Shown here: positions 3,604-30,493 of the stretch, in pieces
Layout of the letters: each line of letters begins with the position of its first letter
Numbering within the stretch: position 1 is the first letter of the stretch
IMG/VR virus record: IMGVR_UViG_3300012206_000013
Span: 1-35,314 of that record
Strand: one strand, 5' to 3'
Source: a virus
Length of the DNA stretch: 35,314 bases
Notes under the pieces: generated by a model
Seen by the model: the letters and a program-made list of their open reading frames with translations, nothing else
What the model was told of the DNA's origin: nothing
The model's database searches: none
Made by a program: the position numbers and the translations under genes

Positions 3604-5100
3604 ATGGATCAGGTACTTCGAAGTGATATTGATATAGTAAAAGTAAATCCAAAAGAAGCGGTAAATGCTGCAATGGCGCATCTTAACTTCCTTGCAGCAC
3701 TTGTTCTTGGGGAACATATGATATATCTTTTCCCAGGAATGTTTATTGCTATTTGGAACTTCCTTAAAGGGAAAGTTCATCTTATACGAGATTTTTCGCA
3801 ACTTGCAATTGGGATTCCTCGTGGATTCGCAAAGACAACAATAATAAAAATCTGGATTGTATTTTGTATTCTTTTCACAACAAAGAAATTTATACTTGTT
3901 ATCTCATCAAATGAAGATCATGCAGTAAATATAATAAAAGACGTTTGTGATATGCTTTCAATGCCAAATATTCTTGCTCTCTTTGGAGATTTTCGTACAA
4001 ATTTTGAAAGAGATCAAGCACAATGTAAAATTTTTAGATTTCGTGGAAGAAAGATAATACTTGCAGGATTTGGGGCAAAAGGTGCAATTCGTGGATTGAA
4101 TGTAGGTTTGGAACGGCCAGATATCATTATCTTTGAAGATTACCAAACAAAGAAAGAATCTGAGAATGAAGAACTCTCAGAAGAACTCTTCAAAGAAATG
4201 CTTGGCACACATATGAAGGCAAAATCCCCGTTTGGATGTCTTTTCATATTTGTTGCTAATATGTATCCAACTCCTGGGAGTATTCTGAAGAAACTCAAAG
4301 GAAATAAAGATTGGTTAAGTTTCATTGTTGGTGGTATTACTACTGATGGTACAAGTTTGTGGGAAGAACTCCAACCACTTGACCAGTTACTTTCTGAATA
4401 CGAAAGAGATCTCAATGCTGGACATCCAGAGGTATTTCTTGCAGAAGTACTAAATGATGAGCACGCTGGAATTAAGGCTGGAATTGATATTACAAAAATT
4501 CCAAGATTTCCATTTGATGAAGATGACCTTCCACAAGGTCGAGCAATAATAATTGATCCTTCACTTGATAATCCCACAAGTGATTATAATGGTATTGGTC
4601 TTATGGGAATTTATGATGGGATTCCTTGCCTTGAGAAAGTCAAACTTGCAAAATTCACGCCATTTGAACTTATAAAGTATGCAATAATTCTTGCGATGGG
4701 AACTGGAACAAGATTGATATGTGTTGAGAATATTGCTTATCAATCCTCACTTCTTTTCTGGTTTACAAAAGTTTGTGTTGATAATGGCATTGAAGGATTC
4801 CATTTTATGCCATTAAATGTTGGGGGAAAAAGTAAAAATGCAAAAATAATGAGTACACTCAAGGAACTTGAGAAGAAGGAAGTTCTTATTAAAGATGATG
4901 TTCGTCCCCTTCTTATAAATGAAGTTATAAAGTTCAATCCTCTCAAAAAGAATAATCAGGATACTTGTCTTGATCTTCTTACATTTTGTAAGAAAGTTAT
5001 AGAACAATATAGTGAATTAACACTTATGGTTTATGAAGCAGAATACCAAAGTATTGGGAATGCTACTCCTCGTGCAATTGAAGATAACTGTCTTTTTTGA
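3604..5100 (+). CDS. terL: Terminase large subunit
   Basis: The 498-aa protein is the packaging motor ATPase and headful or end-cutting nuclease. The N-terminal ATPase has a Walker A-like loop GIPRGFAKTT (residues 70-79), a hydrophobic strand FILVISSN (96-103) typical of the next core strand, and a Walker B DIIIFED (173-179) ending in the catalytic acidic pair. The C-terminal RNase H-like nuclease shows AIIIDPSLD with D318, VEN with E375, and a late acidic pair in QDTCLDLL (D454/D458). Length and domain order match phage large terminases. It starts directly after the previous stop without its own strong ribosome site and is followed 12 bases later by the portal gene. Confidence 0.93.
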   Translation: MDQVLRSDIDIVKVNPKEAVNAAMAHLNFLAALVLGEHMIYLFPGMFIAIWNFLKGKVHLIRDFSQLAIGIPRGFAKTTIIKIWIVFCILFTTKKFILVISSNEDHAVNIIKDVCDMLSMPNILALFGDFRTNFERDQAQCKIFRFRGRKIILAGFGAKGAIRGLNVGLERPDIIIFEDYQTKKESENEELSEELFKEMLGTHMKAKSPFGCLFIFVANMYPTPGSILKKLKGNKDWLSFIVGGITTDGTSLWEELQPLDQLLSEYERDLNAGHPEVFLAEVLNDEHAGIKAGIDITKIPRFPFDEDDLPQGRAIIIDPSLDNPTSDYNGIGLMGIYDGIPCLEKVKLAKFTPFELIKYAIILAMGTGTRLICVENIAYQSSLLFWFTKVCVDNGIEGFHFMPLNVGGKSKNAKIMSTLKELEKKEVLIKDDVRPLLINEVIKFNPLKKNNQDTCLDLLTFCKKVIEQYSELTLMVYEAEYQSIGNATPRAIEDNCLF

Positions 5101-26250: not shown

Positions 26251-26452
26251 GTTTTTCCAAAATTTCTCTAATAAACCTTGCATTATCAAATAATTCTCCA
26301 TCTTCAAATTTACCTAGATAACTTTCTATTTCTTTTGCATACCTTAGTGCATCATTAACTTCATCTCTTCTAACTTTTCCAATGTAATTATTTCCTGGAT
26401 CAAGCATGTCATCTCCAAAAGCCGGATCAATTGTATAATCTTTAGAACTCAT
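26237..26452 (-). CDS. Small acidic hypothetical protein, end of leftward operon
   Basis: The 71-aa protein overlaps the upstream ATPase gene by 4 bases (ATGA), so translation is coupled, and its 3' end overlaps the convergent 1637-aa gene by 14 bases. It is acidic, with a helical second half (DEVNDALRYAKEIESYLGKFEDGELFDNARFIREILEKLIGL). I recognise no family or motif. No terminator hairpin is visible after either convergent gene. Confidence 0.7.
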   Translation of the reverse strand: MSSKDYTIDPAFGDDMLDPGNNYIGKVRRDEVNDALRYAKEIESYLGKFEDGELFDNARFIREILEKLIGL

Positions 26453-27753
26453 ATTCGTATATCCTCTTCTTTAGATTTCATTTCAATATATTCAGGAAGT
26501 GAAAAAACATTACTATGTACAAAATCCCATTTTGGAATAGCTCTTTTAATAATAACTCCTCCATTTTCAATACTATCAACTTTCCCCGCTGCCCTTAATC
26601 CAATCAATAGATCTGCAAGTTGTTTCATACTCTCAAGATCACGATTTACTTGTGGCCAGATCTCTCTTGCTGGATCAAGTGGCTTTTCAGCTTTTTCAAG
26701 GAGTTTAAGGATTTTTTCGGTAACATCGCTATTTCTAGCTTTACCAAATTCTCCGAGCGCCTTAGGCATGAAGTACTCAGTATAGTGAAGTATTGAGTTG
26801 GCGTAAATGACAATTCCAAGATCAATACTTTTTTGTTGCCTCGCAGCCGCACAAGCAAGGCACAATTTAAGGAGGTGAGTATGTCTTCGAGAGGAATAGC
26901 TTTTAAATCTAACATCATCTAGATCTTTCCAGGATTGATAAATATCATCAAGTGCAATAACTGCTTGTGGCTTTATCTCAAATTGTCCCCGCATTTCCAT
27001 TCGTATTTTCATTAGTAAAGAAATGAGGTGAGCCGTAAATTCCGGAATAGGAGGAGGAGGAAAAGATATACGACGACCGCTGGGATCACTATATACCATA
27101 ATAAGTCTGCTGAAGTAACCTTGCCCGATGACTTCGGGAGGGAAAGCTATACTAATGCCGACACCAGTATTACCAGCAAGAATAGATATAGTGGGTTCAG
27201 GAATACGGACGGAACGCCCATTCTTAATACGATTCTCATAGAGTCCTTCCCAATCCCACAATGCAGTTAGAAGATCAATAAACTCAACATTACTATGACC
27301 AAGAAAAGAATTAAACTCACCACTAGTAATGAGACACTCCGCGGGTTCGCTGCTCTTCTCAATTCCAAATAATTCTCGCATTGTTGGATTTTTCTTTTCA
27401 TTCCTTCGAACATCAAGTCTTTCCTCTTCAGAATTGTGAGCATTGTCCATTCCTTCTTCTAGGTCAATTAGAAACTTCTCTTTAGTAGTTTTATCTGCAC
27501 TTATGGTCTTGTAACCAGCTCCAACTAGAAGTCTTTTAACTCCACGAATTGCAGTATCTTTTCGTGTACCACTTTCCCCTACGAGCATTACATAAGGATT
27601 TGCATATATCTTATTATGTCCATGTATAACCCAAGCATTTCTACCAAGTAAAGCTCCTATGCCTGTAATAGCACACCAACGATGATATATTGTTGGAGGT
27701 TCTGTACCTTTCTGATAGTCTAGGTACAGATCAAGAAAGTTTTCATTGGGCAC
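26449..27753 (-). CDS. P-loop ATPase, putative replicative helicase/primase-type (DUF3987-like)
   Basis: The 434-aa protein starts at GTG 27753, inside the end of the polymerase fragment. The segment YHRWCAITGIGALLGRNAWV (residues 23-42), then a P-loop GESGTRKDT (59-67) after an ANPYVMLVG strand, a Walker B-like strand AECLITSGEFNSFL (138-151) with E146, a sensor-like ISILAGNTG (189-197) and QGYFSRLIMVYSD (211-223) match the DUF3987/YfjI-like phage helicase layout as I recall it. The Walker A is unusual: Arg precedes the Lys and Asp follows where Ser or Thr normally coordinates Mg. The C-terminal 100 residues resemble a winged-helix region. It probably works with the adjacent polymerase at the fork. 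Confidence 0.7.
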   Translation of the reverse strand: MPNENFLDLYLDYQKGTEPPTIYHRWCAITGIGALLGRNAWVIHGHNKIYANPYVMLVGESGTRKDTAIRGVKRLLVGAGYKTISADKTTKEKFLIDLEEGMDNAHNSEEERLDVRRNEKKNPTMRELFGIEKSSEPAECLITSGEFNSFLGHSNVEFIDLLTALWDWEGLYENRIKNGRSVRIPEPTISILAGNTGVGISIAFPPEVIGQGYFSRLIMVYSDPSGRRISFPPPPIPEFTAHLISLLMKIRMEMRGQFEIKPQAVIALDDIYQSWKDLDDVRFKSYSSRRHTHLLKLCLACAAARQQKSIDLGIVIYANSILHYTEYFMPKALGEFGKARNSDVTEKILKLLEKAEKPLDPAREIWPQVNRDLESMKQLADLLIGLRAAGKVDSIENGGVIIKRAIPKWDFVHSNVFSLPEYIEMKSKEEDIRI

Positions 27754-28561
27754 TTTGTGGAATCCATGTTGTCATTTCACCCCAGTTGTGGCCGACTTTA
27801 GCTTTAACTGGGATAACCATTGTGCGAGTTTTCCCTTTGCAATCAGTAACTTGCGTTGGACGAATACAAAGTATCCTTGCTGCTTCAATAAGATATTCCT
27901 TGCCAATTCGTATTTGTGAGAATATAGAATCATGACCTTGAGCTTTGAGTCTAAAGTCTTTAGGATTCTGGATTTGAATTTTCCAGAAGATGTCTTTAAG
28001 TGCTTCATTGATAATAGCAACACTAAGGTTCTGTGGTGGATGGGCCACAAGAGCATTGAGATCAAGTTTTGATTTCTCTGGATTACCAAAGCAATAGCGT
28101 GTCCATCCCAGTGGTGAAACAAGTTTGCTGGTAGCTCGAACGGTATCTTTAATTGATTGATACCAAATACTTCTAACATCCGGATATGCTTTGTCATATA
28201 CATCTAGAAGATACTCACAAACTCTTTGGCGATTCCACCATTTTGGCAGTCCCAGAAGTTGCTTTGCTTTATCAACATTTTCATAACCCATAGTAATGAG
28301 GAGTACATACCATCCCATATTATAATTTGCACCGTGGTTAATACGCTTAGCAAGCTGACGAATATCATAATTAAGAACCTCTCCAGTTGGAGATATTATT
28401 TCATTATATGAGATTCCAAAAAATCTTTCAGCATTTATCCCGTGCAAGTCCTTTGAAGATTCTACTGCTGAAATGAGATTCTCATCTCCACTTAGGTAAG
28501 CAGTACATCTGCTTTCAGACTGTTCGTTATCTAATTCACACAGAATGAATGAGTTTTCCAC
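27743..28561 (-). CDS. Family A DNA polymerase, C-terminal half (palm and fingers)
   Basis: The 272-aa fragment starts at GTG 28561 with AAAAGG upstream. It contains motif A as ELDNEQSESR (D11, E16, R18; canonical D-Y-S-Q-I-E-L-R), the O-helix motif B RQLAKRINHGANYNMG (residues 68-83; R68, K72, Y80, G83) and motif C HDS (210-212; canonical HDE). It therefore holds both catalytic aspartates but no exonuclease or thumb. The missing N-terminal part is encoded upstream at 29027-30493, separated by two small zinc-protein genes. The 3' end overlaps the helicase gene by 11 bases. The two halves probably associate into one enzyme; a broken gene is the alternative, but all motifs are intact and both frames are open. 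Confidence 0.88.
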   Translation of the reverse strand: MENSFILCELDNEQSESRCTAYLSGDENLISAVESSKDLHGINAERFFGISYNEIISPTGEVLNYDIRQLAKRINHGANYNMGWYVLLITMGYENVDKAKQLLGLPKWWNRQRVCEYLLDVYDKAYPDVRSIWYQSIKDTVRATSKLVSPLGWTRYCFGNPEKSKLDLNALVAHPPQNLSVAIINEALKDIFWKIQIQNPKDFRLKAQGHDSIFSQIRIGKEYLIEAARILCIRPTQVTDCKGKTRTMVIPVKAKVGHNWGEMTTWIPQSAQ

Positions 28562-28784
28562 GCTTTAACCTTTTCTTATTACGATTCCTCCAAAATTGTA
28601 CTGTACGAACGTCACATAGCTTGCAATTCGCATGGAGCCTTCCATTAGGATAAACGTAGAATGAAGATAATGGTTTTTCAATTCTACAATTGGGACAAAC
28701 TTTTACTATTTTTTTTGGATGCAGCTTTTGTTCTTCAGGAATACGAAGAATTTCTTGAACAAAGAAACTTATTCCATTATTCAT
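28536..28784 (-). CDS. Zinc module like the N-terminus of an HNH/EndoVII-type endonuclease
   Basis: The 82-aa protein has a four-Cys zinc site: CPNC (C30, C33) and CKLC (C54, C57). Between them is the spacing and signature IEKPLSSFYVYPNGRLHAN typical of the pattern C-x-x-C-x-x-x-K-P-L-x-x-F-x...C-K-x-C that begins many phage HNH and recombination-endonuclease-VII-like proteins. The C-terminus is very basic (RNRNKKRLKRGK), suited to DNA binding. No catalytic HNH/DHH triad follows, so it looks truncated or stand-alone. It lies between the two polymerase halves, overlapping the C-terminal half by 26 bases and the 87-aa gene by 8. A homing-endonuclease remnant is the favoured inference. Confidence 0.7.
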   Translation of the reverse strand: MNNGISFFVQEILRIPEEQKLHPKKIVKVCPNCRIEKPLSSFYVYPNGRLHANCKLCDVRTVQFWRNRNKKRLKRGKLIHSV

Positions 28785-29040
28785 ATTGAGTATAAAGTTT
28801 TATAAATTCTTGCGCTTCTTGTGCAGCATCTAAATATTCTTTTGAAGGATTTTTATCTATTTCCTGTCCTGAGCGATATGCTTTCCAAATTTTAGTTCTT
28901 ATATTTATTGGAAGTATAAACCAATGTTTTGAACATCCCCAGAAGGTCGGAGGTACTTGTTTATTACATCCGGGCCAATGACACTTATGTTCTTTAGTTT
29001 GAGGTTGAGATTTTACATAATCAACTTTAGTCTGGAACAT
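28777..29040 (-). CDS. Small zinc-binding phage protein between polymerase halves
   Basis: The 87-aa protein contains HKCHWPGCNKQVPPTFWGCSKHW (read at residues 18-40) with C20, H21, C25, C36 and H39 able to bind zinc. An ILPINIRTKIWKAY helix and a GQEIDKNPSKEYLDAAQEAQEFI tail follow. Small proteins with this C-x-W-P-G-C ... W-G-C-x-x-H-W pattern are familiar from many phages, with unknown function. Its ATG overlaps the end of the polymerase N-terminal half by 14 bases, and it overlaps the next gene by 8 bases. It therefore sits inside the interrupted polymerase locus. Confidence 0.75.
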   Translation of the reverse strand: MFQTKVDYVKSQPQTKEHKCHWPGCNKQVPPTFWGCSKHWFILPINIRTKIWKAYRSGQEIDKNPSKEYLDAAQEAQEFIKLYTQYE

Positions 29041-30493
29041 ACATTCCCTTTATTGCTTCAGTTTGATTCTGGAAGTTAGCTCCCGTCCAGTTATATCCTT
29101 CACTTGAACTCAGTCGTCCTGTATCCGTACCATCTGGATTCATTGAATAATACATTCTTCCGTAATGAAGAAGATATGTCTTCTTTTTTGTTGGCTTTAC
29201 TGAAACTGAGAAATCTTTTGGTTTCAGGTATCGAGATATAAGAGCACCAGTTTCCCGGAGTTTAAGTATCTCTGTAGCAAATCGTGCATTAAGTGGATGT
29301 CTAATTGCGAACAATCGTAAAGCTGCCTCATCAGCGTTTGGTATGTCTGAGCTTCCATAAAAATGCACAAGTTTTGACACTTGTGCTGGTGAGTTGCCAC
29401 TGAAATCTTCACCGAACCAATGTTGTAGACGCTTTCTTGACGAATTGAACTCTGTAATATATTGCACAATAAGTCTAGATCTTGTATCTTCATTTACTTT
29501 AACTCCTTCAAGATTCATATAAAGACAAGCTGGCCATAGTGGAAACTTTAGGAGATAATTATTCCATGCCCATTGAGGCATTTCTTTACAGAGTCCCAGG
29601 AAGGATACAAGTGTAGCCCAACCATCTCGTGCATTGTACTCAAAGATTCTTCCAGTTTCCTTTGCCAAGTCCTTCCAATAGAAAATGTTATGAACCAAGA
29701 AAGCTCCAATGAAAGCCAAGTTTTTGGGCAATTCTGAATACCAAGAATGGAACATAGACTGTGTATCGAAAAAATATCCCCAACCCGGAGATGAGTAACT
29801 GATACAGTGTGCATTGTCATATAATCCATTCTGAAAGATTTTTGGAACTTTAAGAAGAAGGAATTTCCTCATCCAAATTACCCAATACATTTGTTCTTCA
29901 GAAGGAGCCTCAAGTATTGGTAATACTATTGTATGAATATTCCCATCAAGCCATAAACCTGTAAATGCTATGCATCGTATAGCAGTCTCATATTCCCCAT
30001 TTGATACATTTTCAAATGAAGAAGTTTCAATATCACTTGCAATAAGAATCGCTTGAGAAAAGAGTTGGTACCACTTTTCGATTGTTTCAAGTTTTGTGAG
30101 TTCCCAGCTAAACTCTGGAGTTCTAGGCCAGTCGCTTGGTCGTACCAACTTGCTAAGAAATCTCTTAGCAAGGAATTTCCCATACGGAACACTATATAAT
30201 TGTCGCAAAGGATTAAGGAACAGATATGTGATTCCTTCCCGCTCAAATAAAGAGCCGGCCCAATTATCGAGTGACTGATGCCTCTGACTTCCAATGACGA
30301 GATTAAGAACGATAGAAGATGTGGAGATGATATTTCTAATACCCTTAGATTCTGCATATAATTGAATCTCCGCGGCTGTATCAGGATTTTTATCTATTAC
30401 ATAAGTATGACGTCCATGAAGAAGTGACTTCAGGGTTGTGAGATATGGAATATCATCTGGAATTACCATTAGAAGAATTGGTGAGGAATCCAT
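29027..30493 (-). CDS. Family A DNA polymerase, N-terminal half (exonuclease and thumb)
   Basis: The 488-aa fragment carries a DnaQ-like 3'-5' exonuclease: ASDIETSSF (ExoI, D154 and E156), FQNGLYDNAHC (ExoII, N222 and D226) and EYNARDGWA (ExoIII, Y286 and D290). The thumb and start of the fingers follow, ending with YYSMNPDGTDTGRLSSSEG and NFQNQTEAIKGMYVPD. That end aligns with the Pol I stretch running from TGRLSS to IRQAF-APED, immediately before motif A. Motif A resumes in the C-terminal half at 28561, so almost nothing of the domain is missing. The stop codon at 29027 overlaps the 87-aa gene start. The fragment alone could proofread but not polymerise. Confidence 0.88.
   Translation of the reverse strand: MDSSPILLMVIPDDIPYLTTLKSLLHGRHTYVIDKNPDTAAEIQLYAESKGIRNIISTSSIVLNLVIGSQRHQSLDNWAGSLFEREGITYLFLNPLRQLYSVPYGKFLAKRFLSKLVRPSDWPRTPEFSWELTKLETIEKWYQLFSQAILIASDIETSSFENVSNGEYETAIRCIAFTGLWLDGNIHTIVLPILEAPSEEQMYWVIWMRKFLLLKVPKIFQNGLYDNAHCISYSSPGWGYFFDTQSMFHSWYSELPKNLAFIGAFLVHNIFYWKDLAKETGRIFEYNARDGWATLVSFLGLCKEMPQWAWNNYLLKFPLWPACLYMNLEGVKVNEDTRSRLIVQYITEFNSSRKRLQHWFGEDFSGNSPAQVSKLVHFYGSSDIPNADEAALRLFAIRHPLNARFATEILKLRETGALISRYLKPKDFSVSVKPTKKKTYLLHYGRMYYSMNPDGTDTGRLSSSEGYNWTGANFQNQTEAIKGMYVPD

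Follow-up and report, generated by a model that had tools for sequence, protein, structure and literature searches.

A family A DNA polymerase encoded by two genes in a viral genome, and the probable recurrence of such splits just before motif A

Does a replicative DNA polymerase whose reading frame stops and restarts inside the polymerase domain still form one enzyme, and how did the two parts come to be separated? This question is raised by the IMG/VR record IMGVR_UViG_3300012206_000013, positions 1 to 35,314 (the whole stretch of 35,314 nucleotides (nt) that was analysed, called the window here), in which a family A DNA polymerase is divided between two genes on the minus strand, with two small open reading frames (ORFs) in the gap between them. 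Very probably the two genes specify a two-chain polymerase assembled in trans after gene fission. Related loci were labelled L001, L002 and so on during the analysis, and the main features of the window, with lengths of products in amino acids (aa) and positions on DNA polymerase I (Pol I), are as follows.

29027..30493, minus strand: N piece of the family A DNA polymerase, 488 aa, with exonuclease, thumb and TGRLSS stretch, C-terminus ...GMYVPD followed by the stop
28562..29026, minus strand: gap between the pieces, 465 nt, taken as equivalent to Pol I 697/698, 7 residues before the motif A aspartate
27743..28561, minus strand: C piece of the family A DNA polymerase, 272 aa, GTG start, with motifs A, B and C
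28559..28561, minus strand: start codon of the C piece, GTG, the sole ATG, GTG or TTG from the in-frame stop to the motif A aspartate, with AAGG 8–11 nt upstream

Composition of the two polymerase pieces

A preliminary description of this DNA had placed a split family A polymerase at these two sets of coordinates, with the exonuclease and a terminus before motif A in the N piece and motifs A, B and C in the C piece, and both the coordinates and the residues proved right in the alignment. The N piece matched phrog_17 (E 9.9e-28) over profile positions 635–1002, is 72% identical to the N piece of L011 across its full 488 residues, and carries a 3'-5' exonuclease domain in which the residues DIE, NG.YD and Y..RD are all kept. 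The C piece matched Pfam DNA_pol_A (PF00476) with E 9.1e-14 and phrog_17 with E 3.7e-22 over profile positions 1008–1238, and its motifs read ELDNEQSESR (A), R..AK..NHG.NY (B) and HDS (C), so that the catalytic residues of the family, the aspartate and glutamate of motif A, the arginine, lysine and tyrosine of motif B and the His-Asp of motif C, are all present in the window pair. Since coverage of phrog_17 ends at 1002 in one piece and resumes at 1008 in the other, nothing was lost at the break, and the two genes jointly span the whole polymerase, as the preliminary description had supposed in stating that nothing catalytic is missing. Modelled alone, the C piece reached a predicted local distance difference test (pLDDT) score of 93.5 and its fold matches Bst, Taq and Klenow (E 4e-13 against Bst/Taq), and the model of the intact relative L016 also displays the Pol I (Klenow) fold, with E 2.9e-27 against Klenow 8oo6. 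The packing of the frames with short overlaps was likewise borne out, with 14 nt between the N piece and an 87-aa ORF, 8 nt between this and an 82-aa ORF, 26 nt between the 82-aa ORF and the C piece, and 11 nt between the C piece and the next gene of the operon.

Position of the break

The break was placed on Pol I from a profile alignment to the Klenow fragment, with the residues counted by hand, and it lies between what we take to be residues 697 and 698 in the Pol I numbering. In the model of L016 (pLDDT 92.8) the corresponding place is the loop 491–494, directly before the motif A strand 495–502. When aligned with the intact relatives Aeromonas phage P5, Polaromonas phage Tiera, Pseudomonas phage PaP2, EBPR podovirus 3 and the IMG/VR contigs L002 and L003, the two pieces lie end to end, VPD of the N piece being followed directly by (E/D)G(Y/F) with zero residues lost. 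Because the cut falls within the polymerase domain, the catalytic centre has to be put together from both chains. A split intein was ruled out by inspection, the end of the N piece and the beginning of the C piece both consisting of polymerase residues.

The same split in sister phages and its absence in other relatives

Of the 101 loci up to L101, the window counts as one and two others are without the C region, leaving 98 for the junction count. Unsplit relatives, for which the preliminary description had proposed a search, make up most of these, with the junction unbroken in 93 of the 98 loci (86 distinct DNA sequences). The split was found in four of them, which derive from two contigs, L001, L011 and L013 belonging to one and L014 to another. 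Both sister contigs show about 70% aa identity to the window in both pieces, and their N pieces stop after the identical codon. The sister gaps are 152 and 156 nt long, as against 465 nt in the window, and contain a 57-aa ORF that is common to L013 and L014 (61% identity, with nonsynonymous divergence (dN) 0.28 and synonymous divergence (dS) 0.68) and is unrelated to the 87-aa and 82-aa ORFs of the window, neither of which is present in the gaps of the two sister phages. An 8-nt deletion near the junction was also observed in L082 (around position 4983) relative to its near twin L085.

Selection and start codons

Nei-Gojobori estimates among the three split phages gave dN 0.14–0.23 and dS 0.68–1.33 for the N piece, and dN 0.14–0.26 and dS 1.35–2.13 for the C piece, dS values above 1 being near saturation. 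The dN/dS ratio is about 0.1–0.2 in both pieces across the three phages, and the N and C pieces are thus under purifying selection. In each phage the interval from the in-frame stop to the motif A aspartate contains exactly one start codon, GTG, TTG and ATG in the three, and the ATG of the L014 C piece overlaps the stop of the 57-aa ORF (ATGA).

A second lineage with a split polymerase

In the report on the OM43 phages MEP401 and MEP402, the family A polymerase is divided between ORF13 and ORF15, which are separated by a small ORF, and its authors considered an intron possible (PMC10580990). The MEP401-type break is just before motif A and matches the window place, the N piece of MEP401 ending in ...FLSRYGE and the C piece starting with MILNADAKALE, which corresponds to phrog_17 positions 1003/1008 versus 1002/1008 in the window. 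Both halves are visible in 77 of the 81 MEP401-type loci and the polymerase is split in all 77, with gaps ranging from -17 to 635 nt. Negative gaps, in which the halves overlap, were observed in 14 of these 77 loci (ten of -1 and four of -17), and all 78 of the 81 loci in which the motif was located have a start codon in the interval from the in-frame stop to motif A. The contents of the gaps vary, with one recurring family of 74–81 aa. The halves in MW202796 are 3.6 kilobases (kb) apart, with seven genes between them that include a cytosine methyltransferase, and the cultured Alcaligenes phage vB_Af_QDWS535 (OK172329) has TAATG at the join of its halves. Such overlapping or distant halves make an intron unlikely in the MEP401-type lineage and, by analogy, in the window lineage. 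The C piece of QDWS535, used as a query against viral_contigs, gave no match.

Individual MEP401-type gaps also showed contents of other kinds. An endonuclease gene (phrog_3322, E 7.7e-29) occupies positions 2567–2995 of L181, and an ORF of the DHFR_2 (R67-type) family (PF06442, E 2.7e-22) occupies positions 2782–2988 of L185 (MW202697, a spring-water phage). In both loci, around position 3022 in L181 and 3010 in L185, a one-base frame change is found in an A-run just past motif A (GACGCAAA...), for which an error, a mutation and a slippery site are candidates.

Separate origins and a third set of split polymerases

A 47-row maximum-likelihood tree requires two changes among the split rows, which its supported branches enforce, and none of 200 bootstrap trees gave a single change; in a 28-row tree, keeping the split rows in one group carries a penalty of 177.8 log units (approximately unbiased test, p = 0.001). 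The intact polymerases of HMO-2011 and HTVC033P are sisters of the MEP401-type lineage. Judged from these trees, the window and MEP401-type splits would not be of common descent, and separate origins are needed.

A scan for DYSQ-type motif A covered 119 stretches, all of them analysed, with 120 matches, of which a crude rule flagged 29 as breaks, mostly not polymerases. Polymerase-like C pieces were seen in L333, L341, L406, L412, L421 and L424 (for L333 under a more permissive limit than that applied to the 29), and N pieces were located for L333, L406, L412 and L421, L341 beginning at its C piece. In this third split set (L333 and L406/L412/L421) the N piece ends just past PNLQN, the C piece begins about 18 residues ahead of motif A, and ORFs of 67–123 aa lie between the pieces. 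When L333, L406, L412 and an intact relative of theirs were included in a quick tree, built without bootstrap values and with intact kin of the third set only 36–37% identical, three changes were needed in all, and the third set may represent one or two fission events. In L424 (2530–4379) the frame of the polymerase is broken before motif A, and the displayed part of the N ORF has no clear TGRLSS stretch. T7-like polymerases, scanned for TAATG before the T7-type motif A, were unbroken among the 80 analysed of at least 120 stretches, two apparent breaks being contig starts. A distant relative in Caulobacter phage Kuura (L191, 1766–3448) is annotated with only 560 aa, and the exonuclease domain may be missing from its N part.

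The near-identical cut sites in unrelated phages suggest a natural breaking point. It is likely, taking the following as one combined reading, that the stretch from TGRLSS to motif A is a recurrent fission zone in which trans-assembled polymerases arose at least three times (in the window lineage, in MEP401/QDWS535 and in L333/L406/L412), that the first two were broken at one loop within about 3 residues of each other, and that the gap, once the gene was split, came to take up exchangeable genes, 3.6 kb of them in one phage.

Proposed mechanism and competing explanations

In the proposed course of events, the gene of a replicative family A polymerase underwent fission in the loop that leads into the motif A strand, a loop that would tolerate free ends. 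The two genes would then be translated as separate products of a single operon mRNA, with the C piece initiated at its own GTG and probably coupled to the preceding ORF, and the chains would come together noncovalently as one Pol I-like enzyme, to which the N chain would contribute the exonuclease, the thumb and the TGRLSS stretch, and the C chain the fingers together with the two metal-binding aspartates. Thereafter the gap would readily accommodate small genes, different ones in different phages. We infer the translation of both chains, their assembly, their activity and the coupling. The functional two-subunit enzyme of the preliminary description is well supported by the conserved split, the purifying selection, the pieces' own starts, the unlike coding gaps and the overlapping or distant halves of the other lineage.

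A self-splicing intron of group I or II that fills the gap, with splicing restoring one mRNA and one chain in the manner of the SPO1-type phages, is improbable, although the zero residues lost at the break are what an intron would leave. No match was obtained in the gaps by an Rfam intron search of the window region, L013, L014, L181, L412 and L333, a search that misses divergent introns, as its yardstick Goe26, whose polymerase gene we take to be a member of the intron-bearing SPO1-like group, scored only E 0.22 for group I; the sole intron-type match was a 16-nt group II D5 in L014, at chance level (E 1.6) and inside the C piece. Introns are often present in phage DNA polymerase genes (PMC10580990), but the gaps of the two sisters are filled by the conserved 57-aa ORF, two ORFs, one assigned to a known family, extend across the gap of the window, the MEP401-type halves overlap in 14 of 77 loci and stand 3.6 kb and seven genes apart in MW202796, and the break in Goe26 lies at a different site, about 45 residues upstream of motif A.

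A decaying, non-functional polymerase, with replication performed by the host or by an unseen polymerase, would fit the broken reading frame of an essential gene and a record that may be incomplete, yet such decay is quite improbable in view of the retained catalytic residues, the low dN/dS in both pieces of the three phages and the retained start codons. The preliminary description had also considered a separate intact polymerase elsewhere, and the family-profile search of the window and the two sister records, which may be fragments, returned the two halves only. Joining of the frames into one chain without splicing by ribosome bypassing or frameshifting, the former being known for T4 gene 60, is extremely improbable, as the ribosome would have to skip ORF-bearing stretches of 465, 152 and 156 nt, the distance between the halves reaches 3.6 kb, with other genes in between, in the second lineage, and every C piece has its own start codon. 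A sequencing or assembly error is hardly credible either; small frame breaks do occur in such contigs, as in L082, but the identical split in two other contigs makes error or chance implausible, the break being the same in three separate contigs, two of them with a conserved insert.

Some points weigh against the two-chain polymerase. Only three phages of the window lineage are known to be split, and all three records may be fragments, so an unseen second polymerase is possible. The 465-nt gap of the window, taken alone, is large enough for a small intron, and the Rfam negatives count for little by themselves because of the weak score of the Goe26 yardstick.

ORFs in the gap and the question of a mobile endonuclease

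28777..29040, minus strand: gap ORF 1, 87 aa, phrog_18063 (function unassigned), E 5.1e-28, ATG inside the final codons of the N piece
28536..28784, minus strand: gap ORF 2, 82 aa, zinc-ribbon-like (CxxC...CxxC)

The preliminary description had called the two overlapping gap ORFs zinc proteins, a putative assignment that agrees with the Cys/His patterns visible in them, and had suggested a history involving a mobile endonuclease, for which the support is weak. Homologues of the 87-aa ORF lie near but outside the polymerase gene in L008, L009 and L046, and among replication and recombination genes in L010; the ORF is one of the ordinary genes of the replication region. The 82-aa ORF matched phrog_2255 (E 1.8e-7, profile positions 49–99 of 211 only) and phrog_1035 (E 4.5e-6), its likeness is limited to the zinc-ribbon part of phage HNH/endonuclease VII families, without the nuclease core, and its homologues in named phages are weak. 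No nuclease gene was found in the window gap or the sister gaps, and the 57-aa ORFs of the sisters are without a convincing profile match. A mobile endonuclease is nevertheless a possible origin of the window split, because a real endonuclease occupies the L181 gap in the MEP401-type lineage.

Comparison with known systems

Split phage polymerases are already known, in family B from Aeromonas gp43 and in family A from MEP401. According to PMC2988022, gp43A and gp43B of Aeromonas phages 25 and 44RR are, like the window pair, a replicative polymerase in two chains whose gap may hold a mobile gene, but they belong to family B, and their gap holds a seg endonuclease or untranslated sequence. The same review states that 43A and 43B of phage 25 co-purify with polymerase activity, that the split NrdA of Aeh1 is active, and that seg as the splitter of gp43 is hard to tell from seg as the invader of an already split gene (PMC2988022). 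As in the phage 25 kind, each gene of the window pair has a start of its own and is under selection. The LUZ24-like polymerase parts I and II (PMC3890496) are also of family A and in two genes with small ORFs between, but their break separates the exonuclease from the polymerase part (171 + 546 aa) and lies outside the polymerase domain. MEP401 and MEP402 (PMC10580990) have the same arrangement as the window, of an exonuclease and N part, then motif A onward, with a small ORF between, although they are distant relatives that branch elsewhere in the tree, next to intact sisters, and have their own origin of the split. QDWS535, a member of the MEP401 lineage, is broken at the same place, with two family A polymerase coding sequences annotated in GenBank OK172329, but its genes overlap by one base. 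Goe26 (SPO1-type, OM728296) has a family A gene interrupted before motif A, with an ORF in the gap, but differs from the window in where it is broken and in that its gap matches group I weakly.

Two points appear to be new, the repeated splitting at a single site and the case against the intron suggested for MEP401, and in the open-access literature no paper was found on the split of the window lineage or on repeated fission at its site. If true, repeated independent fission at one loop would mean that Pol I-type enzymes remain functional after a cut at this place, which is of use for phage genome modularity and for split-polymerase reporters. The intron idea for the MEP401 group is directly testable, as relatives with overlapping or distant halves speak against it.

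Other features of the window

26449..27753, minus strand: downstream operon gene, DNA primase family phrog_14296 (DUF3987), E 6.9e-62, with the 11-nt overlap with the C piece

In all 39 rows of alignment A4 (the window and its relatives), a histidine stands at the place of F762 of E. coli Pol I and a serine at that of E883, and the family thus departs from that enzyme at both positions. F762 of Pol I is a known sugar-discrimination site, and nucleotide selection by these polymerases may be unusual because this residue is replaced by histidine.

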